Assembly (NCBI RefSeq): GCF_010672525.1
Contig: NZ_JAAHGH010000060.1
Coordinates: 1 to 43,635 of the forward strand
Direction of reading: 5' to 3'
Length of the DNA: 43,635 bases
Source of the DNA: Okeania sp. SIO2B3
Lineage (GTDB): Bacteria; Cyanobacteriota; Cyanobacteriia; Cyanobacteriales; Microcoleaceae
In this document: piece by piece, positions 161 through 27,622 of the stretch
Position numbering within the stretch: the stretch's first letter is position 1
How the letters are laid out: every line of letters begins with the position of its first letter
Notes under the pieces: generated by a model
Told to the model about the DNA's origin: nothing
The model's input: the letters and a program-made list of their open reading frames with translations, nothing else
The model's database searches: none
Position numbers and translations under genes: made by a program

Positions 161-185
161 CTCTTCCTTTGGAATGCTACGCAAA
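161..185 (+). repeat. 25-nt hairpin element, copy 1
   Basis: A TTCC-TTT-GGAA stem-loop is followed by GCTACGCAAA and then CAGC. It belongs to the family with copies at 1424, 3388, 4042, 4373, 9345, 9484, 15479, 19784, 26852, 27435 and 27578. It lies over the 3' end of the four-helix-bundle remnant, whose last in-frame residues and stop codon it supplies. Confidence 0.6.
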
Positions 186-334
186 CAGCTTTTGAATGAA
201 TGAAGTAAGCATTCGTTTAACTTCTACTACATTTTCAACTCTATGAAAAGAAATGTAGATGTGGCTTGATAAACTGTTAAGGTTAAGTGATGGACTTTTT
301 TTGCCCATACTTTTAATTCTTTGAAATTTATCAA
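177..334 (-). pseudogene. Four-helix-bundle protein remnant (23S rRNA intervening-sequence protein family)
   Basis: On the minus strand a TTG at 334, preceded by an AAGGAG-like site, opens a frame reading INFKELKVWAKKVHHLTLT then VYQATSTF. This is the typical start of cyanobacterial four-helix-bundle proteins of the 23S intervening-sequence type. The frame stops at 227-229. A second frame then reads VENVVEVKRMLTSFIQK, which resembles the C-terminus of the same family (an EVKRML helix), and ends in the 25-nt element at 177-179. The middle of the protein, roughly 60 residues including the usual SQIRRA helix, is missing and the two ends are out of frame. I conclude this is an internally deleted, dead gene. 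The family's cellular role is not well defined. The identification rests on remembered consensus, not alignment. Confidence 0.62.
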
Positions 335-446
335 TTGCTTTTTTCTCCTTTTTTGTAAGGTAATAAAGCTGATAGCTGATAGCTGACCGCTGAATGCTTA
401 AGATGAAATATCATTCAAAATAAACAAATCTCTAAAGGAATAAAAA

Positions 447-1064
447 GTGGATTTAGCGCAAGGAGTTCAATTTGTTTCATTTGCTTTATTAAGCATAATG
501 ATGATTGCTGCTGCTTTGGGAGTAGTGTTATTTTCTAATATTGTCTACTCAGCATTTTTGTTGGGTGGAGTATTTATGAGTATTTCTGGTTTATACCTTT
601 TATTAAATGCTGATTTTGTGGCTACTGCCCAAGTTTTGATTTATGTTGGAGCTGTTAATGTCTTGATTTTATTTGCAATTATGCTTGTAAATAAACGAGA
701 AGATTTTAAAGCTTTGCCTAATGCTTGGTTTAGAAAAATAGCTACAGGTTTAGTTTGCGTTGGTTTATTTGCTTTACTAAGTACCATGGTATTATCTACT
801 TCTTGGTCAATTCCTGGTGCTAGTATTGCTAATACAGAAAGTTCAATTGTTTTAATTGGTAGACACTTTTTTAGTGATTTTTTACTTCCTTTTGAACTTG
901 CTTCTGTGTTTTTGTTAATGGCAATGGTGGGTGCTATTATTTTGGCTCGTCGTGATATTTTGCCTGATGAAGTACCGACTGATATTCCTCAAACACCTGT
1001 TTTAAGTTTGCCAGAACGTCCCCGTGAATTAGTGTCTGGTTCTAGCGAAATTTCTAATAATTAA
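447..1064 (+). CDS. ndhG: NAD(P)H-quinone oxidoreductase subunit 6 (NdhG)
   Basis: Membrane subunit of the photosynthetic NDH-1 complex, which takes electrons from ferredoxin to plastoquinone in respiration, cyclic electron flow and CO2 uptake. It corresponds to NuoJ of bacterial complex I. The 205-residue product has about five hydrophobic segments. The conserved third segment region, around YVGAVNVLILFAIMLVN, is clear, and the C-terminus is a hydrophilic, proline-rich tail as in cyanobacterial NdhG. The GTG start at 447 has an AAAGGA site 8-13 bases upstream. ndhE follows after 21 bases, the usual cyanobacterial order within ndhA-I-G-E, so ndhA and ndhI are expected just outside the window to the left. 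About 450 bases of repeat-rich DNA lie before ndhG, which may separate it from ndhI. Confidence 0.96.
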   Translation: MDLAQGVQFVSFALLSIMMIAAALGVVLFSNIVYSAFLLGGVFMSISGLYLLLNADFVATAQVLIYVGAVNVLILFAIMLVNKREDFKALPNAWFRKIATGLVCVGLFALLSTMVLSTSWSIPGASIANTESSIVLIGRHFFSDFLLPFELASVFLLMAMVGAIILARRDILPDEVPTDIPQTPVLSLPERPRELVSGSSEISNN

Positions 1065-1085
1065 ATTCAAAGAGTTGATAAGTTT

Positions 1086-1397
1086 ATGCAATTGCAACTG
1101 GAGTATTTTTTGTTATTAGCCGCAGCACTTTTCTGTATAGGTATTTATGGTTTAATTACCAGTCGCAATGCAGTTAGGGTGCTGATGTCTATTGAGTTAC
1201 TGCTTAATGCTGTAAATCTAAATTTGATGGGTTTTTCTAATTTTCTAGATTCCCAGAATATTAAAGGTCAGGTATTTACTGTATTTGTAATTACTGTTGC
1301 TGCTGCTGAAGCTGCAGTTGGTCTAGCGATAGTTCTTGCAATTTATCGTAACCGTGACACGGTAGATATGGAACAGTTTAATTTATTAAAGTGGTAA
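1086..1397 (+). CDS. ndhE: NAD(P)H-quinone oxidoreductase subunit 4L (NdhE)
   Basis: The NuoK homologue of NDH-1, a small three-helix proton-channel subunit in the thylakoid or plasma membrane arm. The 103-residue length is normal. The two buried glutamates typical of NuoK/NdhE are visible in [14 protein letters not shown] (second helix) and [11 protein letters not shown] (third helix). It starts 21 bases after ndhG stops, so the two are surely co-transcribed. After the stop there is no clear terminator, only a 25-nt hairpin element at 1424 and AT-rich repeats. Confidence 0.97.
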
Positions 1398-1423
1398 TTT
1401 TAAGGTAAGCATTCAGCTATTAG

Positions 1424-1448
1424 CATTTCCTACGGAATGCTCCGCAAA
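1424..1448 (+). repeat. 25-nt hairpin element, copy 2
   Basis: CATTTCC-TAC-GGAATG forms the stem-loop, followed by CTCCGCAAA and CAGC. The stem differs from copy 1 but keeps base pairing, and the 3' end is conserved. Confidence 0.6.
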
Positions 1449-1539
1449 CAGCGTTCAGCTTGAGTTGATAATCTTTGAATGCTTACTTTTTAATACTATA
1501 AAATGTTTTGTTTGAGCAGTTTTAAATATCCCCCTGTGC

Positions 1540-1682
1540 ATCTGGATTTCAATAATTAAGAATTAAGAATTAAGAATTTAGAATTACTTCTCCTTTAAAA
1601 CTGATAGGATTGACTCAAAGGAAATTTTTTCTTTTTATCCTCTTAAAAGAGGAGGATTTAAACCACAATTTTTCGGTAACTA
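1540..1682 (+). repeat. Dispersed A/T-flanked repeat (family R), diverged copy
   Basis: AAGAATT tandem steps lead into a motif close to ACTTCTCC...GATAGGATTGA, a T-rich run, then a TTAAAAGAGGAGG-type stem and AAACCACAATTTTTCGGT. The same order of parts recurs at 11140, 16098, 16420 and 19240. This copy lacks the GGCGAGG hairpin core. The rest of the interval from 1398 to 1841 holds no gene I can recognise. Confidence 0.45.
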
Positions 1683-1841
1683 TTTATTGTCGAAAAATTT
1701 TTTTTTAATACTATGTAAAGAAATATAATTTTATTTACTGAAAAATATTAAGCTTCGTTACTAAGCTGCAACATAAAATAATTTCTGTGCTACCGTTTCT
1801 AATCAGAAACAAGTTCAAATAATTTAGGGGAGGAAAAAACT

Positions 1842-2042
1842 TTGAATTCAGAAATTAAAAAATATCCATCTTGTTCTTTACATCAAGATGTTAGTGAATA
1901 TGTGGCTGATTTACAATTTCACATGACTTTACACGCTCGTAATTTAGTTCCTTCTCTTAATCAAGCAAAAGATGGTCGCGAGGAAATGTTACAACAAACT
2001 CAAGCTCATTTTGAAAAGTTAATTTCTCGACAAACTCTTTAG
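1842..2042 (+). CDS. Small hypothetical protein, 66 residues
   Basis: A short gene supported by a strong ribosome-binding site (GGGGAGG, about 6 bases before a TTG start), in-frame coding-like codon use and a terminator right after the stop. The protein is hydrophilic and mostly helical by eye, with a central LQFHMTLHARNLVPS segment, no membrane segment and a basic/acidic C-terminal helix. I do not recognise the family; it could be a cyanobacteria-specific small protein. A perfect stem-loop (GTTTCT-AATC-AGAAAC, 1795-1810) sits in the leader about 30 bases before the start and may influence expression. It is a single-gene unit, separated from ndhE by about 440 bases. Confidence 0.7.
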   Translation: MNSEIKKYPSCSLHQDVSEYVADLQFHMTLHARNLVPSLNQAKDGREEMLQQTQAHFEKLISRQTL

Positions 2043-2066
2043 TTATTTTTATATTTATTTTTATTC

Positions 2067-2107
2067 AAAAACCCAGTTTCAAGTAGCAAAAGAAATTGGG
2101 TTTTTTA
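2067..2107 (+). terminator. Rho-independent terminator after the 66-residue gene
   Basis: AAAAACCCAGTTT pairs with AAATTGGGTTTTT across a 13-base loop, with one G-U pair, and the 3' arm runs into a T tract. It begins 25 bases after the stop codon at 2042. Confidence 0.8.
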
Positions 2108-3001
2108 ATTTGTTTGAAAACTTCAAGGACTCCACATTCTATAGAACCCTAATCGTATTTTTTACATTAACTTTTTTTCTGCAACCTGAGCGATCGCAAT
2201 CAAAACTATACTATTTTTAGTTGAATAAAAAGTCATGCGCAGGGGCGAACGAACCCTTATAGGTTTTATGATATCACAAAAATTATGAGGATACAACCGA
2301 AAAACCTTTGGCACAATTTTTGGGAAGCTTCATAAAATGAATATGTTGATGATTTCCACTGGGGAGTTATTGATGGAAAGATTTGATGAAAAAAACCACT
2401 ATTTATGGGAGCTTCACAGAATAAAAATGTTTCTGGTATTGCTTCTAGGAAAATTCCTGAAGATTTGATTGTCTCTCAGTTAGGAAAATATGTTGAATAA
2501 AAAAATCATGCGTAGGGGCGAGCAAACCCTTATAAATTTTATGATATCACAAAAATTGTGAGTATGAAACCAAAAAACCTTTGGCACGCCGCATTTTTTA
2601 GGGTGCTTAACAAAATGAATATGTTGATGATTTTTCACTGGGGAGTTATTGATGGAAAGATTTGATGAGAAAAAACCACTATTTATGGAAGCTTCACAGA
2701 ATGAAAATATTTTTGGTATTGCTCCTGGGAAAAATTCCTGAAGATTTGATTGTCTCTCAGTTAGGAAAATATGTTGAATAAAAAATCATGCGTAGGGGCG
2801 AGCAAACCCTTATAAGTTTTATGATATCACAAAAATTGTGAGTATGGAAGCGGAAATCCTTTGACGCGCCGATGATAAGCTTAACAAAATGAAAATGTTG
2901 GCGATCTTCCACTTAGGAGGTATAGATGGAAAGATTTGCAGAAGCTACACAAAATGAAAATATTTCTGTGTTGCCTCTATTCCACTACCGACTCGTAACT
3001 C

Positions 3002-3044
3002 AAAAATTGGCGCTGCTGAGTGGTAATGATTTTTAGATTAAGTA
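3002..3044 (+). repeat. Left copy of a ~43-bp inverted repeat (partner 4854-4898)
   Basis: From TGCTGAGTGGTAATGATT to AAGTA this matches, in inverted orientation, 4854-4884 without a mismatch that I can see; similarity extends outward through AAAAATTGGCG with a few changes. It marks where the plus-oriented arm ends. The partner marks the outer end of the minus-oriented arm, enclosing about 1.8 kb. Confidence 0.8.
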
Positions 3045-3387
3045 GGGTTTGCTGAATATAAGTTTTTCAATTTTACTTTCAGCTACTTACTATTAAATTT
3101 GAGCAACGTTGAAAAAGTTTTTTTCAGAGTGGGAGAAGTTCTTGCTAGACAAGGATTTGACCACGGATACACGGATGATTAATCTGCATTTTGTGAAGCT
3201 TAAAAAAAACGGCAAGGTATTTCTCCTTGAATTCCCCAAAAAATTATGAGACAATTTAATCATTAGGTGTAACTCGTCCCTAAGCATGACTTTTTGTTCA
3301 ACACTAAAACAGCATTTCGCCACTGAATACATATAGAGGAGATACTCACCCCATAAATAGTACCGATATTATTCATTTAGAAGCGAT

Positions 3388-3412
3388 GTAGCTACCGCAC
3401 TTGCTCCGCCAA
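3388..3412 (+). repeat. 25-nt hairpin element inside a HIP1 site, copy 3
   Basis: GCGAT, then 25 bases ending GCTCCGCCAA, then CGCTA. The matching position of a sister unit at 3722-3729 is an intact GCGATCGC, so the element appears as a clean 25-base insertion. The same insertion is present in the sister units at 4042 and 4373. Confidence 0.75.
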
Positions 3413-4041
3413 CGCTACACTCACAAATCCAGAAATTTATCATCCTGTGAAGCTCTAAAAAAACGACAAGGTATTTCCCCTTGAATTCCCCAAAAAATTA
3501 TGAGACAATTTAATCATTGGGTATAACTCGCCCCTGCGGATGACTTTTTATTCAACAAGGAAACAGCATTTCGTTATTGAATATATATATAGAAGAGATA
3601 CTCACACCATCAAAGCACCAGAAAAATTGATCATCCTGTGAAGCACTTGGAGAAAAAAGTAACCACCGGAAAACTTGCCCGCCCCATCAACAATACCGAT
3701 ATTATTATGATTCATCTAGAAGCGATCGCTATACTCACAAATCCAGAAATTTATCATCCTGTGAAGCTCTAAAAAAAACGACAAGGTATTTCCCCTTGAA
3801 TTCCCCAAAAAATTATGAGACAATTTAATCATTAGGTGTAACTCGAACCTATGTATGACTTTTTATTCAACAAGGAAACAGCATTTCGTTATTGAATATA
3901 TATATAGAAGAGATACTCACACCATCAAAGCACCAGAAAAATTGATCATCCTGTGAAGCACTTGGAGAAAAAAGTAACCACCGGAAAACTTGCCCGCCCC
4001 ATCAACAATACCGATATTATTATGATTCATCTAGAAGCGAT

Positions 4042-4066
4042 GTAGCTACCGCACTTGCTCCGCCAA
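4042..4066 (+). repeat. 25-nt hairpin element inside a HIP1 site, copy 4
   Basis: Same sequence and same GCGAT/CGCTA position as 3388-3412, probably copied along with its array unit. Confidence 0.75.
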
Positions 4067-4372
4067 CGCTACACTCACAAATCCAGAAAATCATCATCCT
4101 GTGAAGCTCTAAAAAAAACGACAAGGTATTTCCCCTTGAACTCCCCAAAAAATTATGAGACAATTTAATCATTGGGTGTAACTCGACTCTATGCATGACT
4201 TTTTATTCAACGCAAAAACAGCATTTCGTTGCTGAATATATATAGAGGAGATGCTCACACCATCAAAGCACCAGAAAAGTAATCATTCTGTGAAGCATTT
4301 AGAGAAAAAAGTAACCATCGGAAAACTTGCCCGCCCCATCAACAGTACCGATATTATTCATGTAGAAGCGAT

Positions 4373-4397
4373 GTAGCTACCGCACTTGCTCCGCCAA
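4373..4397 (+). repeat. 25-nt hairpin element inside a HIP1 site, copy 5
   Basis: Same sequence and same GCGAT/CGCTA position as 3388-3412 in a further array unit. Confidence 0.75.
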
Positions 4398-4899
4398 CGC
4401 TATATTCACAAATCCAGAAAAGTAATCATTCTGTGAAGCTCTAAAAAAAATGGCAAGGATTTTCCTCTTGCATCCTCAAAAAAAATTATAATAGTATGTA
4501 ACCATTGGGTGTCACTCGCCCCTACGCATGACTTTTTATTCAACACAAAAACAGCATTCCGCCACTGAATACATATAGAGGAGATAGTCACACCATCAAA
4601 GCATCAGACAAATTATCATTCTGTGGAGCACTCGAAAAAGAACTGGCAACAGGAAAAATTTTCATCCCCATGAATAGATTGAAATTACTTATGCACAAAT
4701 CCAGAAAATCATCATCCTGTGAAGCTCCAAAAAACGGCAAGGTATTTCTCGTTGCATCTCCAAAAAAGTTATGATATGATGTAATCATTGGGTGCTGCTC
4801 GCCCCTAAGCATGACTTTTTATTCAACTAAGAAAAAGTTTATATTTTACGTTGATACTTAATCTAAAAATCATTACCACTCAGCAACGCCCAAAAATTT

Positions 4900-5331
4900 A
4901 ATCGCGGACAAAGATACCAAATAGATGTCTTTTTTTTCTCAAAATCTTTGTCTCAATGGTAGTCAGAGATTTTTAACAAGTTTTAATTATACTTTTCAGG
5001 TTGTGTATTTTAAAATTTAAAACTTTGTTATCAATCTCTGACAATAATATTGGTGAATAAACTAACAAATTTTCAATACTTTCAGCGATTTTTCTCAATT
5101 TCGTGATATGGTAAATTTAATTATAATCCACGGGATTTTTATTGCTTAATGGAAAAATAAACTTGTAAACCCTTATTCTGTCGTTATTTTAGGTAGCGAT
5201 CGCTCTTTATTGTTTGAAGGATGACTAACTAATTTTCTCCAACCTATTTAACTGGCAATTGACAAAAATACATTTATGTGTATTGCATAAATTAGCACTA
5301 CATCAGGAAAAAACTAATAGTAGGAATAAAA
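4900..5331. other. Intergenic, AT-rich, no feature recognised
   Basis: One HIP1 octamer near 5198 and an AT-rich background. No open frame with coding character, RNA gene or repeat copy that I can recognise on either strand. Confidence 0.5.
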
Positions 5332-5366
5332 TTGACGTACTCCCCGGCATAAATGCACGGGGATTC
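5332..5366 (-). repeat. Right end of IS200/IS605-type element with imperfect hairpin
   Basis: On the minus strand, downstream of tnpB, the sequence reads AATCCCCGTGCATTTATG and then CCGGGGAGTACGTCAA. CCCCG and GCAT pair with CGGGG and ATGC with one bulged T (5342-5362). A hairpin of this type followed by GTCAA is typical of the right end of cyanobacterial tnpB-bearing elements, where the end of the guide (omega) RNA usually lies. Confidence 0.7.
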
Positions 5367-5377
5367 TCAGGCGGATG

Positions 5378-7812: not shown

Positions 7813-7815
7813 ATA

Positions 7816-8366
7816 TTTGAAGGAAGAAGGAAGAAGAAATAAGAAAGAGGGAAGAGGGAAGAAGGAAGACGGGGTAAATATTGAAAACAAGGGATAAACG
7901 ATAGAAATAAATATCTAAAATGAACTGGATAGACTATTTTTCAGCATATCCTCCTGACTCCTGACTACTGACTCCTGACCAAAAAATAAGGTCTCAACCC
8001 TCCCCTTTCAAGCTATCCCTTATAAGGAACTCCTGAAAACCTTGTGGGGAGCAGGGAGCAGGGGAGAAGGGAGAAAGAATCATAGTAGATAGGAAAAACT
8101 ACTTAAGTTATCAAAAAAAATGTACTTTTTAATACACTTTTTCTCTGACAAAAACCTTTTAAAAGCTTGTACATAACTTGTCTATTTTGTCAATTTTTAT
8201 GTTAAGTAAAGATGTTAATAAAGCATAGTCTTTCAAGGGGATGAAAAGCGGTCGAGGGATGGCGAGGTCTCCTCGCCATATCCATGAGACCAAGATCAAA
8301 TAAAGTTCAATATTTAAGCCTTCTGACTTTAACTAGAGGTACTGATAACTGATAACTGAAATGACT
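7816..8366 (+). repeat. Dispersed repeat, copy 1 (interrupted)
   Basis: Runs from a purine-rich GAAGGAAGAAG tract through GGGGTAAATATTGAAAAC, GGATAGACTATTTTT, CTCCTGACTCCTGAC-type steps, CCCTCCCCTTTCAAG and the GGCGAGG hairpin to a TAACTGATAACTGAAATGAC tail. The copy at 8531-8862 has the same parts without the 217-bp insert at 8013-8229. Confidence 0.85.
8013..8229 (+). mobile_element. 217-bp MITE-like insert with 8-bp target duplication
   Basis: Copy 1 of the repeat reads CTTTCAAG at 8005-8012, then this insert, then CTTTCAAG again at 8230-8237. Copy 2 has a single CTTTCAAG at the same place. The ends, CTATCCCTTATAA on the left and the complement of CTATGCTTTATTA on the right, match at 10 of 13 positions. 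There is no open frame. An 8-bp duplication with short imperfect inverted ends fits a non-autonomous DNA transposon; the family is unknown to me. Confidence 0.75.
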
Positions 8367-8377
8367 CCTCCTAAATT

Positions 8378-9344: not shown

Positions 9345-9369
9345 TTTGCGCAGCATTCCACAGGAAATG
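9345..9369 (-). repeat. 25-nt hairpin element, copy 6
   Basis: On the minus strand: CATTTCC-TGT-GGAATG stem-loop, then CTGCGCAAA followed by CAGC. Confidence 0.6.
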
Positions 9370-9483: not shown

Positions 9484-9508
9484 TTAACGCAGTTCCTCCG
9501 GAGGAGGC
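9484..9508 (-). repeat. 25-nt hairpin element, copy 7
   Basis: Interrupts the first TAACTGA step of a repeat tail that is uninterrupted at 8345 and 8830. On the minus strand it has a CCTCCTCCGGAGGA-type stem and the 3' end CTGCGTTAA. It aligns base for base with the 25-mer at 26852 at 18 of 25 positions, and the stem changes largely keep pairing. Confidence 0.65.
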
Positions 9509-10959: not shown

Positions 10960-10960
10960 A

Positions 10961-15478: not shown

Positions 15479-15503
15479 TTTGCGCAGCATTTCCACAGGA
15501 AAA
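15479..15503 (-). repeat. 25-nt hairpin element, copy 8
   Basis: On the minus strand: TTTTCC-TGT-GGAAA stem-loop, then TGCTGCGCAAA. It lies between the flavoprotein and rubredoxin genes. Confidence 0.55.
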
Positions 15504-16954: not shown

Positions 16955-18055
16955 ATGGAAACCGAACTTACGCCTAATGGCAATAACTTGCTCGCCACTG
17001 ATAATGCAGAAGCGATCGCTCTTTCCTCTGGAGAACTCGCTAATTTTCCCGATGGGTTAGCTGCTCTTAGTGGCAACGATACAGTTACGGGGTCTTCAGA
17101 CTCAGAATTCATCCTGGGAAACCGGGGTGAAGATAGTCTTATTGGTGGAGGAGGCAATGATACTTTAATGGGTGGTAAAGACAATGATACAGTAGAAGGT
17201 GGCAATGGTAACGACTTAGTCCGTGGCGATCGCGAAGCTGATGTTGTTAGAGGAGGCAATGGTGGGGATAGTTTATTTGGAGGCAAAAATAACGACCGCC
17301 TCTTTGGCGATGGGGGCAATGATGTTTTATTTGGCGATCGCGATAATGATACTCTCAGTGGTGGTTTGGGACAGGATACTCTCAATGGTGGAGCAGGTAG
17401 CGATGTCTTTGTCTTAGAAAATGGTGCAGGTGTGGATGAAATAGCTGACTTTGAAAATGGTATTGATATAATTCAACTACCCGATGGTTTAAGTTTTGAC
17501 AATATAAGTTTACAAAATAGTCAGCAAAACACTGTGATTATCGATCGCCTCACAGGAGAAACTATAGCGCAAGTAAATAATGTATCTGCGGGGAGTCTCA
17601 GTAGCGCCAATTTTTTATTTGAAGGGGTTCCTCCTACCGAAACAGATAATCAAAATTTCATTAATAGAGTTGTCGATCTGACCAACCAAGAGCGCACCCA
17701 GTTGGGTTTGTCTCCCCTGAGTACAGACCCATTATTAGGTCAGGCAGCGCAAACTCACACAGAGAATATGGCACTACAAGACTTTGTTGAGCATACAGGG
17801 TTAGATGGTTCGTCGGCAGGCGATCGCATTGAAGCTACAGGTTATGATTTTTCAGCTTGGGCAGAAAATATTGCGGCAGGGCAGTTGACACCGGAAGAAG
17901 TAGTAGAAGGATGGATGAATAGTCCAGGACATCGCGCTAACATTCTCGATCCAAATTTGCAGGAAATTGGTGTTGGTTACTATTTCTTGGAAAACGATAC
18001 TGGTAGCGTTAATTTCAATCATTATTGGACACAAGTATTTGGAACGCCTTTGTAG
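16955..18055 (+). CDS. RTX-repeat protein with C-terminal CAP (SCP/PR-1) domain
   Basis: A secreted-type fusion protein. Residues ~35-145 are RTX calcium-binding nonapeptides (GGGGNDTLMGGKDNDTV and similar) ending in GAGSDVFVLENG. Residues ~215-366 are a CAP domain: INRVVDLTNQERTQLGL, HTENMALQDFVEH, AENIAAG, GWMNSPGHRANIL, EIGVGYYF and YWTQVFG. These match bacterial YkwD-like CAP proteins, including the histidines and glutamate of the CAP cavity. There is no N-terminal signal peptide, as expected for type I export of RTX proteins, although here the RTX block is N-terminal rather than next to the C-terminus. CAP domains have varied roles (binding, proteolysis in a few cases), so no activity is claimed. 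The upstream 560-bp MITE supplies almost the entire 5' region. Confidence 0.9.
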   Translation: METELTPNGNNLLATDNAEAIALSSGELANFPDGLAALSGNDTVTGSSDSEFILGNRGEDSLIGGGGNDTLMGGKDNDTVEGGNGNDLVRGDREADVVRGGNGGDSLFGGKNNDRLFGDGGNDVLFGDRDNDTLSGGLGQDTLNGGAGSDVFVLENGAGVDEIADFENGIDIIQLPDGLSFDNISLQNSQQNTVIIDRLTGETIAQVNNVSAGSLSSANFLFEGVPPTETDNQNFINRVVDLTNQERTQLGLSPLSTDPLLGQAAQTHTENMALQDFVEHTGLDGSSAGDRIEATGYDFSAWAENIAAGQLTPEEVVEGWMNSPGHRANILDPNLQEIGVGYYFLENDTGSVNFNHYWTQVFGTPL

Positions 18056-18059
18056 AGGT

Positions 18060-18132
18060 GGAGAGGTGGAGGTGGGGAGGTGGGGAGATGGGGGGATGGG
18101 GAGATGGGGGGATGGGGAGATGGGGAGATGGG
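18060..18132 (+). repeat. G-rich minisatellite (GGGGAGATGGGG steps)
   Basis: GGAGATGGGG / GGGGATGGGG steps right after the RTX-CAP stop codon. The same simple sequence occurs at 35311-35380, before the ethylene-receptor-like kinase. Confidence 0.8.
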
Positions 18133-18217
18133 ATGTCTTGAAGTATTGTCAATTATTGCCTCTATCCCATTTACTGCTGTTTGCCTCTAAACTTTTGACA
18201 CAAATATACCCTTGTAA

Positions 18218-19239: not shown

Positions 19240-19445
19240 ACCGAATTATTAATTATTAATAATTAATAATTAAATAATTCTGGTTTAAAGCCTCCCCTTT
19301 TAAGGGGAAAAAAGCGGTCGAGGGATGGCGAGGTCTCCTCGCCATATCTAATCGACCAAGAGAAGAAATAATATTTCCTGATATTCAATCAAGGACGGTT
19401 TTAACCAGAGGTAATTATCAATTATCCATTATCAATTATCAATTA
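19240..19445 (+). repeat. Family-R dispersed repeat with GGCGAGG hairpin
   Basis: GAATTATTAATTATTAAT, GCCTCCCCTTTTAAGGGG, AGCGGTCGAGGG, the hairpin ATGGCGAGG-TCT-CCTCGCCAT (19325-19345), CTAATCGACCAAGAGAAG, GGACGGTTTTAACCAG, then AATTATCAATTATCC-type steps. This is the most complete copy in the window. Confidence 0.75.
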
Positions 19446-19496
19446 ATGAACTGAAATATCCTGTAGATTTATCATTTTTTTCTTCTTGCTTCTTAT

Positions 19497-19670
19497 ATCA
19501 AGCGTGAAAAAAGAATGTTTAGAATAATCAGGGCTAACAAAAGAGTATACAGGATATTTTTATTCAAAGAAAAATATAAATTACGACCTCAAAAATGGTA
19601 TCAAAGCTATTCATTCTGAATCCTGAATTCTAAGAAATAGCATAGTTATTTGTAGCAAATAATGGCTTTG
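19497..19670 (+). repeat. ~170-bp dispersed repeat, copy 1
   Basis: GTGAAAAAAGAATGTTWMG-AATAA, a variable middle, ATTCATTCTGA, a run of CCTGA steps, then TAGYTATTTGTAGCAAA. Its sister at 35587-35785 has the same order of parts. A third, shorter match is at 13911. The segment GGCTTTGTTGCATGAA that follows at 19664 resembles the end of an IS5/IS903-type element, but no partner end is seen. Confidence 0.6.
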
Positions 19671-19710
19671 TTGCATGAAAGTAGCGTTCTTAACATCCAT
19701 TCCGCAGTTT

Positions 19711-19960
19711 AATCGCTCTGTTTCGCGATTATTGATGTTCTATTTATCTATTGTCCAATAGTTATTGCTCTGCTGAGAAAGCGTTGGCGGAGCCTAGCGG
19801 CAGCTATATCGCTCTGTTTCGCGACTATTGATGTTCTATTTACTATTGTCTTATAGTTAGGGCTGATCGTTCAAACCTCAAAGCTTTTACATATAAAGGT
19901 TTCAGCTTTTTTATTTCCAAGACTGATGTTCTATTTATCTATTGTCCAATAGTTACAGCA
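19711..19960 (+). repeat. Three spaced copies of a ~32-bp repeat
   Basis: TGATGTTCTATTTAYC-TATTGTC and a following AATAGTTA start at 19733, 19829 and 19924 (spacing 96 and 95). The first two are preceded by ATCGCTCTGTTTCGCGA. The DNA between copies is unrelated except for the 24-nt element at 19784. The remaining intergenic DNA up to 20360 holds the MITE at 20081 and no gene. Confidence 0.65.
19784..19807 (-). repeat. 24-nt hairpin-family element inside a HIP1 site
   Basis: On the minus strand: GCGAT, then 24 bases ending GGCTCCGCCAA, then CGC. Removing it restores GCGATCGC. This is the same insertion phase as in the array at 3388, 4042 and 4373, but in unrelated flanking DNA. Confidence 0.7.
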
Positions 19961-20080
19961 GTTTCAGCGCGTTATTGTTGTAGATATAAGGTAATTTTTA
20001 ATTGTTGAAATAAGCCTTTTCTCGTAATCCTGAATAAAACATTCTAAAAAGCACCCATTTTTTGATTGACAAATGTCTAA

Positions 20081-20191
20081 TAGACCTCTCCAAAAATCAA
20101 AAATAAAATCAATTATTATCCATAAATTATTAATTACTTCTCCCTATTGCCCATTGCCTATTCCCTATTCCCTTTTTTCTGTAGATGTCTA
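20081..20191 (-). mobile_element. 111-bp MITE-like element, TAGACATCTC family, copy 2
   Basis: TAGACCTCTCC at one end and the complement of TAGACATCTACAG at the other. The inside has the same parts as 10961-11072 in inverted order: AAAAATAAAATCAATTAT, TCCCTATTGCCCATTGCC and CCTATTCCC steps. Confidence 0.65.
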
Positions 20192-20360
20192 ATGAAAATG
20201 GAACTAAATATAATTTTCTTTGGTCAGAGATAGAATAAACTGGCTAGAATAAGGAATTGTCAGTATGTAATCAAAGCTTTCTTCTCAAGGTATTCTTGAG
20301 TAGTTCAGATGACAAAAGTTGAGCTATTTTTTAGAACTCAAAAGTGGTGGAGGAAAATTA

Positions 20361-23300
20361 ATGATAAAAATTTATAAATGGCATCCTGTAGTTGCTTTAG
20401 TCGTAGCATTAAGTACCATAATCAATTCCAAATTATTTGACCATAAAATTATCAAACCAGCACTTGCTGAAACAACCTTAAAAGATATACAAAATCATTT
20501 TGCTCAAGCTTGTATTGAAGATTTATTAGACCGAAAAATAATATATGGTGACTATGAAAGTCAAACATTTCGCCCTAATGCACCTGTAACTAGAGCGGAA
20601 TTTGCTGCAATGATTACTAGGGCTTTTCCAGATGCAAAATTAGTGCGCGACCCGATTAAGTTTGTAGATATTCCTCAAAATTATTGGGCTTATAATGCAA
20701 TTAAAAAATCTTATGAAATGGGTTTTCTCTCCGGATATATTGGCAAAACTTTTAACCCTACTCTCAAGATTACAAGATGGCAAGTATTAACAGCTTTAAG
20801 TGAAGGATTAAATTATCGAGCAAGTGTATCTGTAGAACGAAATTTAAACGCAATTTTTGAAGATGCAGAAGCAATTCCTGAAGAAGCTAAAAAATCTATT
20901 GCCGCAGCAACAGCAAAAGGTATTGTTGTAAATTATCCAAATGTGAGGAAACTAAATCCTAATCGAGATGCTACTCGCTCAGAGGTGGCTACTTTTCTCT
21001 GTCAATCTATTGCAAATTTTGAAACAAATAATGATAGTTTAGTTTCTAAAGTCCCCTCAGAATACATTGCCAAAATTGATATAGATACTCAATCAACAAC
21101 TACCGCAACTGCACCAGAAACTACTCCAGAATCTACGGCAAATACTAACTCAGAAACTACTCCAGAATCTTCTACAGAAAATACAGAACCACCAGGAATT
21201 GTAGAAAGGTTTGGCAATGGTAATTTACAAGCAGAAATTATTTACGAACAAGCAAATAATACAGATTTAGTAAGTAACTTAAATCTGAAAATTATCAGAG
21301 GTGGAGAAATTATTTTAAATGAACCAATACCAGTTAAATCTTTAGCAGGTGACTCAGAATCTGAGACTGAAATGGAAGTATTAGCAGGTAGATTTGTCAA
21401 AGTACAGTTACTAGACTTAGATGGAAATGGAGAATCAGAAGTATTAGTAGATTTAGTAACTATAAATAATAGTGATGTTGTATTTGATAGTGGTACTTAT
21501 TCATTGATTTATCTCTACGAACCAACACGAAATAAATATTCTATGTTGCGTCATTTCTGGGGAAATGTAAATTATAGACTTACAGATTTAGATCAAGATA
21601 ATATTCCAGAATTTAAAAGTGTTGATGGTAGATTTACCAATGTATTTTCTAATATAAATGATGCTCGATTTCCTATTCGTATTTGGCAGTATCGTCAAGG
21701 AGAAATGTTAGATGTTACTAGGCAATATCCAGTACAAATAAATACTAGCGCTTCAGAACTTTGGCTGGAATTTTATCAGCGTTCTAGTCAAAATCAAAAT
21801 GTCAAAGGAGTTTTGGCAGCTTATCTAGCAAATAAATATTTGTTAGGTCAAAAAGAAGATGGTTGGAAATTAATAGAAAAGGTATATCAAAACAGCGATC
21901 GCGAAGTATATTTTGATAATTTGCGTCAATTTTTAGTAGATAAAGGTTATGATAGCGATCGACAAATTAGAGGAAATGTAGTTGCGCCTGAAAATACTGC
22001 TACAGAAAATAAAGAAACCGTTACCTTTGCGACTAATGATACGGAAGAAATTTCACCTCAAACAACCAGAGAAACAGAAAATACACTGCCACCAAGAACA
22101 CTTACACCAGAAACAACAGAAACAGAAGACAATACTGAAACACAACAACCCGAAATTTCACCTCAAACAACCAGAGAAACAGAAAATACACTGCCACCAA
22201 GAACACTTACACCAGAAACAACAGAAACAGAAGACAATACTGAAACACAACAACCCGAAACTTCACCCCAAACAACCAGAGAAACAGAAAATACACTGCC
22301 GCCAAGAACACTTACACCAGAAACAACAGAAACAGAAGACAATACTGAAACACAACAACCCGAAACTTCACCCCAAACAACCAGAGAAACAGAAAATACA
22401 CTGCCGCCAAGAACACTTACACCAGAAACAACAGAAACAGAAGACAATACTGAAACACAACAACCCGAAACTTCACCCCAAGCAACCAGAGAAACAGAAA
22501 ATACAGAAACTCAGGCAGATATTAATAACGATCTAGTGCTAGCACCAAGGTTAGTTCGCTCTCTATCTAACCCGCAACCAGATTCTGCTTTCTCTGTAAC
22601 CATTAGTTTTGATGGAGAAATATTAGCCAGTAGTCGCGGTCAAGATATCCAACTGTGGAACTTACAAACAGGCAAATTACTAGAGACTTTATCCAGTCAT
22701 CAAGCTAATGTGCGCTCAGTAGCAATTAGTCCAGATGGAAGAACTCTAGCTAGTGGAAGTGGAGATGGCACAGTCAAATTGTGGGATATTCCTACAGGAG
22801 AAATGCTCGTCAGTTTTTTGCATTCTGGCGTAGTCACTGCTGTTGGTTTCACTGCTGATGGCAGAACAGTAATAGGATGCAGCGCCGATCGCGGAATGAA
22901 ATCTTGGGATATTTATACAGGGCGACTACTGCACAGGATGAATGGTACTCAACCTATTGCTTTTGGCGCTGGTGGCCTGCGCATGGCAGCTAGTGGAGGG
23001 CCAAGATTTATTCGACTTTGGAATGCAGAACAAGGGCAACTGCTGAGAAATCTTTCTATACCCAATACAAATAATAATCGTGGCATAGAAGCGATCGCTT
23101 TCAGTGAAGATGGGCAAACTATTGCTCATGCGATGAAAGGAGAAAGTAAGATTTCAGTCTGGGATGTGGAAACCTGGAAAGTACGTTATACTCTAGAAAA
23201 ACATTCTCAGGCAATTAAAGCGATCGCAATTAGTCCAGATGGAAAAATACTTGCTAGTAGCAGTGAGGATGGTAATATTAATCTGTGGGATCTTGGTACG

Positions 23301-23432
23301 GGAAAATTGTTGAGAAGTATCAAAGGTGATGGTGCAATTGTTTTTAGTCCAGATAGCAAACAACTTGTAAGTGTTTCGCAAGATAATCTTATTCAGCTCT
23401 GGCAAATTTATGGGTCTGCGATCGAACAGTAG
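20361..23432 (+). CDS. SLH-domain protein with T/E-rich tandem repeats and C-terminal WD40 domain
   Basis: Large exported surface-type protein, 1023 residues from the ATG at 20361, chosen because GGAGG lies 8 bases upstream; an upstream TTG at 20319 has no such site. A signal peptide (WHPVVALVVALSTIINS ... ALAET) is followed by three SLH modules, residues ~40-215: HFAQACIEDLLDRKIIYG, FRPNAPVTRAEFAAMI, YWAYNAIKKSYEMGFLSGY and NPNRDATRSEVATFL. SLH modules bind cell-wall polymers. A beta-rich middle with an FG-GAP-like LLDLDGNGESEVLVDL segment (~285-520) precedes four near-identical 35-residue repeats. The C-terminal ~290 residues are about six WD40 blades (for example SVAISPDGRTLASGSGDGTV then KLWD). 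WD40 propellers are usually cytoplasmic, so an SLH-anchored one is unusual. It probably serves as a cell-surface binding scaffold; this is inference. Confidence 0.9.
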   Translation: MIKIYKWHPVVALVVALSTIINSKLFDHKIIKPALAETTLKDIQNHFAQACIEDLLDRKIIYGDYESQTFRPNAPVTRAEFAAMITRAFPDAKLVRDPIKFVDIPQNYWAYNAIKKSYEMGFLSGYIGKTFNPTLKITRWQVLTALSEGLNYRASVSVERNLNAIFEDAEAIPEEAKKSIAAATAKGIVVNYPNVRKLNPNRDATRSEVATFLCQSIANFETNNDSLVSKVPSEYIAKIDIDTQSTTTATAPETTPESTANTNSETTPESSTENTEPPGIVERFGNGNLQAEIIYEQANNTDLVSNLNLKIIRGGEIILNEPIPVKSLAGDSESETEMEVLAGRFVKVQLLDLDGNGESEVLVDLVTINNSDVVFDSGTYSLIYLYEPTRNKYSMLRHFWGNVNYRLTDLDQDNIPEFKSVDGRFTNVFSNINDARFPIRIWQYRQGEMLDVTRQYPVQINTSASELWLEFYQRSSQNQNVKGVLAAYLANKYLLGQKEDGWKLIEKVYQNSDREVYFDNLRQFLVDKGYDSDRQIRGNVVAPENTATENKETVTFATNDTEEISPQTTRETENTLPPRTLTPETTETEDNTETQQPEISPQTTRETENTLPPRTLTPETTETEDNTETQQPETSPQTTRETENTLPPRTLTPETTETEDNTETQQPETSPQTTRETENTLPPRTLTPETTETEDNTETQQPETSPQATRETENTETQADINNDLVLAPRLVRSLSNPQPDSAFSVTISFDGEILASSRGQDIQLWNLQTGKLLETLSSHQANVRSVAISPDGRTLASGSGDGTVKLWDIPTGEMLVSFLHSGVVTAVGFTADGRTVIGCSADRGMKSWDIYTGRLLHRMNGTQPIAFGAGGLRMAASGGPRFIRLWNAEQGQLLRNLSIPNTNNNRGIEAIAFSEDGQTIAHAMKGESKISVWDVETWKVRYTLEKHSQAIKAIAISPDGKILASSSEDGNINLWDLGTGKLLRSIKGDGAIVFSPDSKQLVSVSQDNLIQLWQIYGSAIEQ
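22047..22500 (+). repeat. 105-bp in-frame tandem repeats (four full, one partial)
   Basis: The unit TTTCACCTCAAACAACCAG onward starts at 22051, 22156, 22261 and 22366, with a partial fifth from about 22471. It encodes 35 residues beginning SPQTTRETENTLPPRTLTPE. Units differ at very few bases, pointing to recent expansion or gene conversion within the SLH-WD40 gene. Confidence 0.95.
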
Positions 23433-23506
23433 ACATAAGCGTCATTTCAGTTATCAGTTATCAGTTATTAGTTATCAGTAAAAAAGAATGTAGAAACCTT
23501 GAGTTA

Positions 23507-23595
23507 TATCATGTCCGGATAATCAGTTATAAAAAAGCCTTCTCCCTTTGAACCTTTCTTTCCACCAAAGTGTAAGTATTCAAGCGGACATGATA
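23507..23595 (+). mobile_element. 89-bp MITE, TATCATGTCCGG family
   Basis: TATCATGTCCG (23507-23517) and CGGACATGATA (23585-23595) are perfect 11-bp inverted ends. It is followed by TTA and preceded by TTA. Interior: GATAATCAGTTATAAAAAAG and a pyrimidine run. This is the reference short form of the family. The remaining DNA to 23955 has TAACTGA-type repeats on the left (23441-23480) and nothing recognisable on the right. Confidence 0.8.
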
Positions 23596-24042
23596 TTAGG
23601 GAGTGGGGAACAGGGAGCAATAGCAAAGGTTATTTTAACCCTAATTAAAGAGACTGCACATAACCTCTCTACAAGGGTTGCTCGAATAGGAATATTTAAT
23701 TTATGGAAATGTCTAGTAAATTTATATAAGTTTTGATTGGGAGTAGAGTAAACTAAGACGTATTTAGATTTTATGTTCTCTGCTCCCTTTTTCTTTTCAA
23801 AAAAATTGTATAGCAGGGAACCCACACCAAGATAGGCAACAGCTCATCTGTGGGAAAAATATTTCCCTGTTTAAGGTTGATCATCAGTCTATGCCAAACA
23901 CCAACTGGTTTTTTGCTATACTATATATTATATACTTTATTACATACAAAATAGCTTGAAGTCAGAAGTTATGTACTCCAAAATCAAACAATTAACCTCT
24001 ATATTTTCTATATATAATTTGAGTAAACAAATCAATAAAACT

Positions 24043-24936
24043 ATGTTGCGACGCTATTTTATTGGGTATATTCTCCTCTTTGTTGCTGGTTGTACTACAG
24101 TTACAAATAATCAGCCTAGAAACTCTAATAATTCTCTTCTTAAAGATCAAGAAAAACTAAGATTTGCGGTGAGTGGTATTCAAAGTCTAGCAAATTGGCA
24201 GCGTGATTATGCCCCATTTAGAATTGCCTTGGAAGAAGTATTAGAGACAAAAATTGAGTTTGTTCCCATTGATAGTTTGATGGAAGCAACAGCATTACAG
24301 TTGGCTTTAGTAGATATAGTTCTGGCGGGGCCATCAGAATATGCGATTATTAAAGCAAGAACTAATGCAATGCCTATTGTTGCGGTAACACGACCTACTT
24401 ACCGTGCAGTCATCGTCGTCCGTAAAGACAGTGAGATTAAGTCATTAGCTGACTTAAAAGACAAAACAATTGAGTTAGGTAAAATTGGTAGCACGGGGAG
24501 CTATCTTGGACAAATTAAAATGCTGATGGATGCTGGATTAAATATACAATCTGATGTGAACATTCTCAACTCAAAAGAGTATGATTTCAAAGCATTAAAC
24601 AATGGTGAAGCTGATGCGTGGGGAAGAACTTCGCACAGATATGAAAAAACTATGCAAAAAGAAAGTGTCGACCAGAATGATTACCTCCTACTTGCCGAAA
24701 GTCCGCGACTGCCCAATGATGTATTTATTGCTAGTAGCAAACTGGAACCGATGCTGGTGGCAGAAATTCGCGAGCGGATGCTGAAAAATAAGGAAAAAAT
24801 GCTGCAAGCCATCCTATCTATACCACCTTTGCCTTCTAAGTATGAGGGTGGTACCTTGGTTGCTGCTGAAGATAGTGATTACGATATGATTCGCGAGGTG
24901 TATAAAGCTATTGGAGAAGAGAATTTTATTAAGTAA
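24043..24936 (+). CDS. PhnD-like periplasmic binding lipoprotein
   Basis: Solute-binding protein of the phosphate/phosphite/phosphonate (PhnD) type. From the ATG at 24043 the product has 297 residues and starts MLRRYFIGYILLFVAGCTTV, a standard lipoprotein signal with lipobox Cys17. Upstream starts at 23956 (TTG) and 23971 (ATG) stay in frame but would bury the signal behind 24-29 extra residues. The fold shows in LRFAVSGIQSLANWQRDYAPF, KIEFVPIDSLMEATALQL, VDIVLAGPSEYAIIKART, AVIVVRKDSEIKSLADLKDK and KIGSTGSYLGQIKMLMDAG. No transporter permease or ATPase is adjacent. Instead a membrane histidine kinase starts 35 bases later, so the protein more likely feeds a signal to that kinase than an importer. 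The ligand is unknown. Confidence 0.88.
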   Translation: MLRRYFIGYILLFVAGCTTVTNNQPRNSNNSLLKDQEKLRFAVSGIQSLANWQRDYAPFRIALEEVLETKIEFVPIDSLMEATALQLALVDIVLAGPSEYAIIKARTNAMPIVAVTRPTYRAVIVVRKDSEIKSLADLKDKTIELGKIGSTGSYLGQIKMLMDAGLNIQSDVNILNSKEYDFKALNNGEADAWGRTSHRYEKTMQKESVDQNDYLLLAESPRLPNDVFIASSKLEPMLVAEIRERMLKNKEKMLQAILSIPPLPSKYEGGTLVAAEDSDYDMIREVYKAIGEENFIK

Positions 24937-24971
24937 TTAAGAATATATAGTTTACTGATGAGGTACAGAGT

Positions 24972-26741
24972 ATGAAAACAGGGAAACTTTTTTCGGCGAT
25001 CGATAAGTGGAGTAGAGGCTTAAGTATTGCCAAAAAAATTGGCTATGGCTATTCCCTGGTGATTGGTATTTCTGTGCTAGGGACAAGTTTAGGGCTAATG
25101 GTAGGAGACTACTATCAAAGACAGGCCCGAGAGCAGCTAAGATTAGTACAAAAAAATTATAGTCTGTTAAAAGAGTTAGAAAGCGCTATTTGGGAGGCCC
25201 AATCTCATCCCCAACAGCTAGCTGCTGTAGTTGGCAACCCTGTATGGTTTCAGTATGAAACGACTAAATTTTTGGCTCAGAGTAAACAATTAAAACAAGT
25301 AATAAAGTCTCTCAAGAATATAATTGATTTTCAATCAAGTCAATTAGTAGCAGAACCAGAAAAATTTAAGAAAATATTACAAAGTTACACTCAGACATGG
25401 AATTCATACACTCAGTTAATGCAGGGAATTTGGCAGGAGATAAATCCGGCTAATTTGCAACCAGAAGATATCCCAGTTGCCAAGCAAAGAGTGTTGGCAG
25501 CTAACACTGGGAAAAAGGCCATTGAGATTCGCATTGAGTTTGAAAAACTATCAGAAAGCTTAAATCAGTTAATAGATATTGTAGAAAAACAACAAAATCA
25601 AGCTAACAAGCGATTCATACATTCGGAAATATTACGAATCAAAATTATTATTGGTAGTATGACACTATCAGTAGCGATCGCTGCTTTTTTAGCATTCTAT
25701 ACCAGTCGAGCGATCGCCAGTCCACTCAAAACGTTAACTAAGACTGCCCAAAGGGTGACAGCAGAATCTGATTTTAACCTGCAAGCTCAAGTCACCACTA
25801 CTGATGAAGTTGGGTTATTAGCTACATCCCTAAATCAGCTTATACGATGGGTAGGAGAGTATACTCGAGAATTAAAGTTAACTCATCAAAAACTAGAAAA
25901 ACGTAGTACTGAACTCACACAAGCTTTGCAAGACCTAAAACAAGCTCAGACGCAATTAATTCAAACAGAAAAAATGTCTAGTCTTGGGCAAATGGTGGCG
26001 GGAATTGCCCATGAGATTAACAACCCCATCAATTTTATTTATGGTAACATCAACCCACTTCAGGATTATATACAAGAGCTTTTGGATTTAATAAATCTTT
26101 ATCGAAAACTATATCCTGACTTACATCCAGAAATAGAAGATTTGATGAGCGAGATCGATCTTAATTATATAATCAATGATTTGCCCCAGATAATTTCTTC
26201 TATACGGATGAGCACTGACCGGATTAAAAATATTATACTCTCGCTACGGAATTTTTCTCGTCTAGATCAAAAAAATGTGAGGCCAGCAGACCTTCACATA
26301 GGGATTGATAGCACTTTATTAATTCTCAGTCATCGCCTCAAAAAGGGAATTAAAGTTATCAAAAACTATGGAGATTTACCTTTAGTAGAATGTTATCCAG
26401 CTCAATTAAATCAAGTGTTTATGAATATCATTTCTAATGCTATTGATGCGATGCTAGAGTCAGATATTCAACCAAAACAGATTGTGATTCAAACAGAAAA
26501 GGTCCCTGAAGATCAAGTCATGGTGAAAATCAAGGATAATGGTCTTGGAATACCACTAGAAGTCAAAGAAAAGATTTTTGACCCATTTTTTACTACGAAG
26601 TCAGTAGGAAAAGGAACAGGTTTGGGTCTCTCTATTTGTTATCAAATTATTGAAAAGCATAGAGGTAGCATAGAAGTAATTTCCGAACAAGGAAAAGGTA
26701 CAGAGTTTGCGATCGTTCTTCCTATTCATTTTCTTGAGTAG
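24972..26741 (+). CDS. Membrane sensor histidine kinase (HAMP, HisKA, HATPase_c)
   Basis: 589-residue sensor kinase. Membrane helix 1 covers ~residues 19-42 and helix 2 ~225-247, with a ~180-residue helical periplasmic domain between them. A HAMP linker ([20 protein letters not shown]) follows and a coiled coil runs to ~residue 330. The HisKA motif [20 protein letters not shown] carries the phospho-acceptor at about His347. ATP-binding boxes are N ([14 protein letters not shown]), G1 (DNGLGI), F ([13 protein letters not shown]) and G2 ([12 protein letters not shown]). The HEINNP type matches ZraS/NtrB-like kinases. It is very probably an operon with the PhnD-like lipoprotein 35 bases upstream, which may dock on its periplasmic domain. 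GAGGT lies about 7 bases before the ATG. No response regulator is adjacent, so the partner is encoded elsewhere. Confidence 0.94.
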
Positions 26742-26843
26742 GGGAGTGGCTCACACGGATTATGGCACGGATACACGGATACACGGATAGGTCAGGGAGT
26801 AGGGGAGTAGGGGAGATTGAATATTGAAGTAATTATAGAATTA

Positions 26844-26997
26844 TATCATGTTCCCCTTCCAGGGGAGCTGCGCTAACGGATAATCAGTTATAAAAAATTC
26901 TCTGTCTTCTAACCTTGCTCTTTCCCTTCTGCCTTCTGCCCTCAGCTCCCGCTGCCTTCGGTCCACAGATATTATAAGTATTCAACCGAACATGATA
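26844..26997 (+). mobile_element. 154-bp MITE of the TATCATGTCCGG family carrying a 25-nt insert
   Basis: Ends TATCATGT... and CGAACATGATA. After TATCATGT a 25-nt element (26852-26876) is inserted, then CGGATAATCAGTTATAAAAA continues exactly as in the 89-bp sister at 23507. The right part carries extra pyrimidine-rich DNA (CTTCTGCCTTCTGCCC). Confidence 0.78.
26852..26876 (+). repeat. 25-nt hairpin element inside a MITE
   Basis: CCCCTTCCAGGGG stem-loop plus GCTGCGCTAA 3' end. The empty site is the MITE at 23507-23595. Confidence 0.75.
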
Positions 26998-27036
26998 TTA
27001 GGCGTTACATAAATGCGGGATAATTTTAATAGTTTT

Positions 27037-27095
27037 GTGGAATGGGTATCTTGTCCGTTCCTTATATTTTTAGGCAGGCAGGATACCCACCCCAC
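27037..27095. repeat. Inverted repeat element (GTGGAATGGGTATC / GGATACCCACCCCAC)
   Basis: Two arms of about 14 bases separated by about 30 bases, forming a strong potential hairpin. It is probably a small dispersed palindrome; I see no other copy in the window. Confidence 0.55.
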
Positions 27096-27434
27096 TTATA
27101 TTTAGGGTTTGTGGAATAAAGCTAAAAGTCAGGATAGCCAAGGTAATGGAGCTTTTTATATTAAGTTGATCTCCTACGTTTATGGCTGTTATTGGCATCA
27201 ATTTACTGAATTTTTCTGCTTAAATTCAAGAAAATTTCTTCACATAAAATGGCCGAAACCGTTGCCTGTTCCCCCACAAATCGACCCGTCTCCGTGTCTG
27301 GTGCGTCCCCGTGTCCTACCCCCACAACCAATTTTTTCAGCAAAACCCTATTTATCCCGCCCCTCAGCAATGCCTAGAATTATCAACTATAGCGCTGTGC
27401 ACAGGCAACAGGCAACAGGGAGAATAAATTGCCG

Positions 27435-27459
27435 TTTGCGTAAGCATTTCCTAGGGATA
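27435..27459 (-). repeat. 25-nt hairpin element, diverged copy
   Basis: On the minus strand: TCCCTAGGAAATGCTTACGC then AAA. The stem is imperfect and the 3' end is of the conserved type. The rest of 26998-27527 holds no convincing gene. Confidence 0.45.
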
Positions 27460-27527
27460 ATATAAGATTTTAGCGATTGGGCACCTCCTGCAATTTATAA
27501 ATATACCAGCGCACACTGCTATAGCTA

Positions 27528-27622
27528 GTAGGTTGGGTTTCACTGCCGCTTAACCCAACACAACTTTTTTGTTGTGTTGATCCTCCGGATAAGCTACGCT
27601 AACATTCTTCAACCCAACCTAC
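27528..27622. repeat. 95-bp inverted-repeat element (GTAGGTTGGGTT ends) with nested 25-nt element
   Basis: GTAGGTTGGGTT (27528-27539) and AACCCAACCTAC (27611-27622) are a perfect 12-bp inverted pair. Inside is a second pair, AACCCAACACAAC and GTTGTGTT, and a 25-nt element at 27578-27602 (ATCC-TCC-GGAT stem, GCTACGCTAA end). Confidence 0.7.

Follow-up and report, generated by a model that had tools for sequence, protein, structure and literature searches.

Copies of the repeat and their setting

The DNA considered here, referred to as the window, is a stretch of 43,635 nt from the genome (10.0 Mb in 249 contigs) of the marine filamentous cyanobacterium Okeania sp. SIO2B3. Copies of a short non-coding unit are scattered through it, and this unit is very probably a small dispersed repeat (SDR). 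A preliminary description of this DNA had listed at least twelve copies. All twelve positions proved to be element-like on read-back, with 9484 as a variant and 27435 as a degenerate copy. Ten of them carry the exact tail GCTNCGCNAAC, which matches 10 times in the window, whereas 100 dinucleotide shuffles gave an expectation of 0.10 matches (largest shuffle 2). The tail at 9484 reads AACTGCGTTAAC, and that at 27435 reads GCTTACGCAAAC and is accompanied by a poor first stem. The copies, together with one empty site, are the following; the subfamilies are defined in the next section.

164–185, + strand: SDR copy of subfamily A (TTCC-TTT-GGAATGCTACGCAAA) with CA directly after it (read-back, tail count)
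1427–1448, + strand: SDR copy of subfamily A; the syntenic place in the related genome G004 holds the same element (synteny comparison)
3388–3412, + strand: SDR copy of subfamily C, 25 nt, in a tandem array; it splits a HIP1 motif into GCGAT (3383–3387) and CGC (3413–3415)
3722–3729, + strand: empty site, an intact HIP1 (GCGATCGC) in a unit of the array
4042–4066, + strand: SDR copy of subfamily C splitting HIP1; G003 and G004 have empty units in the aligned array, and the window's own unit at 3722 is empty too
4373–4397, + strand: SDR copy of subfamily C splitting HIP1; G003 and G004 have empty units in the aligned array
9345–9366, − strand: SDR copy of subfamily A amid heptamer-like repeats
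9484–9508, − strand: SDR copy of subfamily B, 25 nt, second hairpin AAC-TGC-GTT
15479–15502, − strand: SDR copy with CAAAC tail and a first stem of 5 bp; the syntenic place in G004 is filled
19784–19807, − strand: SDR copy of subfamily C splitting HIP1; the syntenic place in G004 is filled
26852–26876, + strand: SDR copy of subfamily B within a repeat resembling a miniature inverted-repeat transposable element (MITE); an empty copy of that repeat lies near 23500
27435–27458, − strand: degenerate SDR copy, loop of the second hairpin TTAC
27578–27602, + strand: SDR copy of subfamily B

The three empty sites proposed earlier were recovered as well, namely the intact HIP1 at 3722 compared with the split one at 4042, CATGT(C)CGGATAATC near 23510 compared with 26852, and AGAGGTACTG^ATAACTG at 8345 and 8830 compared with 9484. 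The tandem array occupies positions 3202–4913 and consists of about six units of 250–340 nt, three of which hold an SDR within HIP1.

Abundance, subfamilies and genomic position

Exact counts were made with GCTNCGCNAAC, and the reversed pattern served as the control in whole genomes. The tail matches 1110 times in the own genome (control 13), and across 59 genomes, the own included, four of the same genus have 718–1228 matches (controls 7–18), in line with the earlier expectation of further copies. High counts were also found in three of the seven genomes of the genus g7 (686–973; controls 6–15). The tail reaches at least three times its own control in 20 of the 59 genomes, in several of them at small counts, and stays below that in the other 39. 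Among the matches listed for the core pattern GGAATGCTNCGCAAAC are many Okeania, Hydrocoleum CS-953, Trichodesmium MAG_R03 and one Microcoleaceae genome, along with scattered single matches in unrelated bacteria, of the kind that chance should produce. Viral contigs contained 48 matching stretches; for a pattern of 15 fixed letters, chance alone should give single matches.

A looser tail, GC[TC]NCG[CT]NAA, was listed from 1.16 Mb of own-genome sequence together with 0.385 Mb from relatives. Of the resulting 215 tails, 193 were kept and classed by regular expressions into A (78), B (28), C (14) and D (12). The 61 unclassed tails, which include chance matches as well as fragments of larger repeats and degenerate SDRs, were excluded from the A, B and D counts. 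What had been presented as a single family is, judged from these classes, a family of at least four subfamilies. The next base was correctly said to be almost always C, which holds for 110 of the 118 classed A, B and D copies.

A split HIP1 followed by the tail matches 80 times in the own genome (control 0) and is found in 103 of 195 genomes of the order, where control matches amount to 10 in total. Other inserts are also seen at HIP1: at C1:126977 and C1:127142 of G000, compared with contig C77 of G004, 24-nt insertions lie at HIP1 (AAAACTACGTTTCGCTGGCACGAT and GATAGCGGAACGGAGTTCTATCGC) that lack the SDR tail and perhaps represent further SDR-like families. In the same comparison, 21 nt are inserted at C1:204992 of G000; this sequence, GGGCGAATGGCATTCGCCCGT, is palindromic almost throughout and is not in the aligned relative.

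A set of 124 copies from the own genome, each with a covarying tail, was placed relative to open reading frames (ORFs) of at least 100 aa: 114 lie outside them, although these ORFs make up 64% of the sequence. This distribution would suit a functional RNA or terminator that selection keeps at gene ends, but also any insertion, since insertions are expected to avoid genes. We regard a function of this kind as very improbable: the flanking genes show no preferred orientation (40 ++, 36 −−, 16 −+ and 13 +− in the element's frame), no Rfam family reaches its gathering score anywhere in the window, and copies sit within repeats and within other SDRs.

A second hairpin and its covariation

The constant 3' end had been described as GCTRCGCWAA. 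While ten of the twelve window copies bear this out, the end is, on the evidence of base pairing, no single-stranded tag but another minihairpin, N-GC-TNC-GC-N', whose closing pair covaries. It is read as a hairpin because the bases flanking GCTNCGC are Watson-Crick partners in 130 of 141 copies and occur in all four forms (shuffled mean 71, largest of 10000 shuffles 87). Among the matches listed order-wide, the closing pair is Watson-Crick in 99 of 113 distinct sequences (mean 50, largest 69).

Because the definition of class B partly includes the presence of a stem, covariation was tested on sets selected by the tail alone. In copies with a CTAAC tail (n = 35) the first stem has on average 3.80 bp, compared with 1.99 bp when arms are swapped (largest of 300 shuffles 2.63). 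In the commonest subfamily, with a CAAAC tail (n = 92), the stem is nearly invariant, and both values are 3.02 bp. The 113 order-wide sequences, among the matches listed, average 3.76 bp versus 2.30. The earlier statement that pairing is largely kept while the stem sequence changes therefore applies to the CTAAC tail, whereas the CAAAC tail gives no such signal.

A formal test on 53 of the order-wide sequences gave a covariation score of 0.392 versus 0.118 and 64 two-sided cells versus 19.4, with none of 500 shuffles as high. Statistical covariation, as had been proposed, was thus found for the closing pair, for the first stem of CTAAC copies and in the overall score, but not for the first stem of CAAAC copies. 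A covariance model built from these 53 sequences, which come from other genera, found the copy at 19784 at E 5.9e-5; it matched weakly at 15479 (E 0.049) and in the three array copies (0.19).

Insertion sites

In an unguided scan for indels of 18–40 nt between the own genome and relatives, 10 of 47 rows contained the SDR tail. An all-against-all comparison at tails yielded 36 filled/empty pairs with net inserts of 21 nt (17 pairs), 25 (7), 22 (5), 24 (3), 18 (3) and 23 (1). The length of 24–25 nt given earlier was therefore too narrow, 21 nt being the commonest insert, and 32 of the 36 pairs have an SDR size of 21, 22, 24 or 25 nt, the other four having 18 or 23 nt. Twenty pairs could be parsed cleanly and represent 15 distinct empty sites, which have T at −1 in 14, C at +1 in 12 and a purine at +2 in 13 cases. 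Likewise, 60 of 61 deduplicated filled flanks with C as the next base have a purine at +2 (expected 0.44). None of these 20 pairs shows a target-site duplication. The nucleotide just ahead of the junction is not the same in the filled and the empty form at C1:131595, C2:67683, G004 C77:139660, 9484 and 26852.

One subfamily splits HIP1 at GCGAT^CGC, which is GCG^ATCGC on the opposite strand. This equals the position given for SDR5, whose precise insertion into HIP1 between nucleotides 3 and 4 is mentioned in PMC4390886. SDRs have also entered one another: A copies lie within the T^C loop of a B copy (G003 C57:23405, G000 C5:4255) and within GCT^CGC of another A copy (C13:13450, C36:10198). We consider precise insertion into pre-existing sequence, including repeats and other SDRs, to be well supported. 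Insertion exclusively into palindromes was rejected, as most sites are non-palindromic and the enrichment is mild: flanking palindromes with a score of at least 5 occur at 14 of 61 sites, with 5.2 expected when flanks are swapped (largest of 200 swaps 13).

That mild enrichment would also be understandable if the repeats had no mobility of their own and were passengers of MITEs, tandem arrays or insertion-sequence-like repeats, or products of replication slippage and template switching at palindromes, which would also equalise the stem arms. Template switching could yield two-sided stem changes without selection, and 35 of the 36 filled/empty pairs are without shown synteny, many being plain repeat copies. 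Passenger copying is nevertheless insufficient, because the SDR unit occurs at 15 unrelated empty sites under a single junction rule, copies are nested in other SDRs at T^C, and HIP1 insertions extend across the order. We therefore think it improbable that these repeats lack a mobility of their own.

Other repeats of the window are two G-rich arrays (18037–18157 and 35284–35404) with an 8-nt unit like GAGATGGGG or GGGATGGG, a direct repeat of 281 nt with 98% identity (38468–38748 and 43355–43635), the second copy of which is cut by the window end, and tandem repeats of 105 nt (21942–22571) within a long ORF (20319–23432).

Comparison with related genomes

Of the 36 filled/empty pairs, 20 lie within one genome, 15 between genomes without shown synteny, and one is syntenic. 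Syntenic intervals allowed 32 comparisons, 13 of which aligned on both flanks and 19 of which were unalignable. Seven of the 13 were filled, one was changed and five were empty. The places of 1424, 15479 and 19784 are filled in G004. Filled/empty polymorphism among close relatives, which the preliminary description had proposed to look for, was thus seen in five of 13 comparisons, but all five concern one tandem array (3388–4397), where the copies at 3388, 4042 and 4373 were compared with G003 and G004. This polymorphism is weak because the orthology of the array is uncertain unit by unit. Movement since the Okeania species split is accordingly weakly shown, in the array alone. The pattern of substitutions between orthologs was also considered and set aside, nine gap-free filled comparisons containing two differences, which is too few.

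Loops, strand and candidate enzymes

When any triloop and any 3-bp stem were allowed, second hairpins preceded by an upstream hairpin had a TNC loop in 89 of 95 cases with GC/GC stems and in 10 of 15 with AC..GT stems. Among Okeania copies whose first stem has at least 4 bp, 74 of 83 have a stem-1 loop of the form T...C; for the order-wide sequences among the matches listed, the figure is 35 of 70. On the opposite strand, TNC and TNNC loops read GNA and GNNA. According to PMC4686876, DNA minihairpins with these loops are extraordinarily stable and nuclease-resistant when the loop is carried by two or more G-C pairs. Because the opposite-strand loops mostly conform to this rule, we lean towards a DNA strand, and we tentatively favour single-stranded DNA over RNA, with somewhat less than even confidence. 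That the loops mostly match the rule for ultra-stable DNA minihairpins is possibly new. As an alternative, UNCG tetraloops of RNA were considered for the first stem and rejected, since T...C loops persist under other closing pairs and the second hairpin has no matching pair. Folding energy was set aside as a criterion for the strand or for DNA versus RNA, for it gave no decision.

An RNA intermediate would mean that the element folds within a transcript, from which a reverse transcriptase makes a DNA copy. Covariation suits RNA as well as DNA, and across 35 genomes of the same family the density of reverse transcriptase matches (PF00078; counts being at least 43 in three of the 35) correlates weakly with SDR density (Spearman 0.42, p 0.011, kinship ignored). 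Within the genus g7, however, the relation is reversed, SDR-rich genomes having 1.4–3.0 matches/Mb and SDR-poor ones 2.7–3.5; the absence of an orientation preference relative to neighbouring genes also speaks against a transcript. Moreover, the GNA triloop of the opposite strand is a known stable DNA motif, whereas we know of no stable RNA motif with a TNC triloop. We consider an RNA intermediate unlikely.

In the manner of REP/RAYT or IS200/IS605, a Y1 (HUH) enzyme might instead cut a single-stranded DNA hairpin and paste it in trans. Y1 enzymes are known to spread short hairpin-bearing elements, with Nostoc punctiforme among the cases named in PMC3116915. Y1 genes were found in 55 of the 59 genomes (Spearman with SDR density 0.31, p 0.07). 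Their neighbourhoods, examined for 20 of 83 Y1 matches in five Okeania genomes, are not enriched in SDRs: the 20 loci contain 12 SDRs versus 13.2 expected, and two versus 3.4 within 800 bp. Subfamilies A, B and D furthermore lack a GTAG or CGTC end tag. Mobilisation by a Y1 enzyme thus appears rather improbable. Neither linkage to RAYT/Y1 genes, with a density at expectation, nor co-occurrence with SDR-rich genomes, where the counts single out neither reverse transcriptases nor Y1 genes, could be retained as an indication of the enzyme.

Discussion

The explanation that we somewhat prefer as a whole is a two-hairpin SDR that inserts at T^CR and spreads by way of a single strand. The element would be a non-coding unit of 21–25 nt with about 1000 copies per Okeania genome, consisting of a hairpin 1 with a variable stem of 4–6 bp and the hairpin 2 described above, followed by AA. 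It would enter precisely between T and C of T^CR without target duplication, sometimes with an altered base before the junction. Spread would proceed through the folded single strand, for which the DNA strand with GNA/GNNA loops is the most likely candidate; an enzyme acting in trans would presumably join this strand at a nick or a single-stranded T^C. As regards the preliminary interpretation as a whole, the large family, the copies in relatives and the covariation stand, but the notions of one family and of a single-stranded end do not, and polymorphism is weak. As to its suggestion that RNA or single-strand structure is selected or read during spread, the loops point rather to DNA.

Several observations weigh against the explanation that we prefer. 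With respect to structure, a perfect first stem of 4 bp in the tested registers is present in just 59 of 92 CAAAC and 26 of 49 other copies, and base pairs with two-sided change are in modest excess (6 versus 4.8 in shuffles, 14 of 500 as high). In 11 of the 92 CAAAC copies CCTAGG[TC] replaces the first stem, and five filled/empty pairs have that form. The AC-TNC-GT form has a single G-C pair and falls short of the minihairpin rule, half of the order-wide first-stem loops are not T...C, folding energies favour neither DNA nor one strand, and energy models fold an example of subfamily A differently from two hairpins. With respect to movement, 20 of the 36 filled/empty pairs are repeat copies of one genome and 15 more are without shown synteny, the sole syntenic pair sits in a tandem array, and those single-copy loci that could be aligned in synteny hold the element in both genomes, as would also be expected of repeats without mobility. 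Contig C1 has no strand bias (13 copies on the + and 11 on the − strand), and examination of Y1 neighbourhoods and of Y1 and reverse transcriptase densities did not reveal a mobilising enzyme. The CCTAGG[TC] copies, for example at G000 C13:140291 and G003 C57:99676, may indicate that hairpin 1 is dispensable or that such copies are moved by a partner.

The Okeania repeats, numerous as they are, belong to a kind of element already known from cyanobacteria. SDR4, SDR5 and SDR6 of Nostoc punctiforme were reportedly described by Elhai et al. in 2008 (Genome Res 18:1484; cited in PMC3116915, PMC3733652, PMC6513891 and PMC4390886) as repeats of 21–27 nt with a common fold, compensatory changes and nested copies; they are said to occur in heptamer repeats and mini-transposons, and the authors reportedly favoured an RNA intermediate. 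Our repeats resemble them, by these features rather than by consensus sequences, in size, in a fold with compensatory changes, in nesting and in their location in heptamer repeats and mini-transposons, and they share the HIP1 position of SDR5. They differ in the host, which is Okeania and its kin instead of Nostoc, and in that subfamilies A, B and D target T^CR outside HIP1. Relative to the 2008 description, two structural features are possibly new: a further hairpin that covaries, and GNA loops specific to one strand. Judged by title and abstract, in a literature coverage that leaves out the original 2008 paper, we recognised no description of such repeats in Okeania or Trichodesmium and none of GNA loops in SDRs.

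With REP/REPIN elements and their RAYT enzymes the repeats have in common that they are short, dispersed, intergenic hairpins, probably of single-stranded DNA moved in trans. REP/RAYT elements carry an unpaired GTAG or CGTC tag at one end, according to PMC3733652, whereas Okeania A, B and D copies have no such constant tag, though some C copies start with GTAG. The Okeania unit, unlike REP/RAYT elements, comprises two tandem minihairpins in 21–25 nt and is not enriched beside Y1 genes. MITEs are likewise non-coding, dispersed and probably moved in trans; the Okeania elements differ from them in having neither terminal inverted repeats nor target duplication and, at 21–25 nt, are shorter than the 70–300 bp given for MITEs in PMC3733652.

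How a sequence of 21–25 nt spreads through genomes has been an open question since SDRs were described. The T^CR junction rule, the second covarying hairpin and the GNA strand lead to concrete oligonucleotide substrates and a testable strand assignment. We may further speculate, while regarding it as unlikely, that SDRs are single-stranded-DNA parasites, in which both hairpins of one strand obey the d(GNA)/d(GNNA) rule and so fold with unusual stability to heat and nucleases, and a short exonuclease-resistant oligonucleotide is captured at T^C nicks or gaps with a change of one flanking base. If this were true, the 3' end on the GNA strand would itself be a minihairpin, the fold would be the element's only trait, and few known DNAs that propagate themselves would be as small as SDRs.

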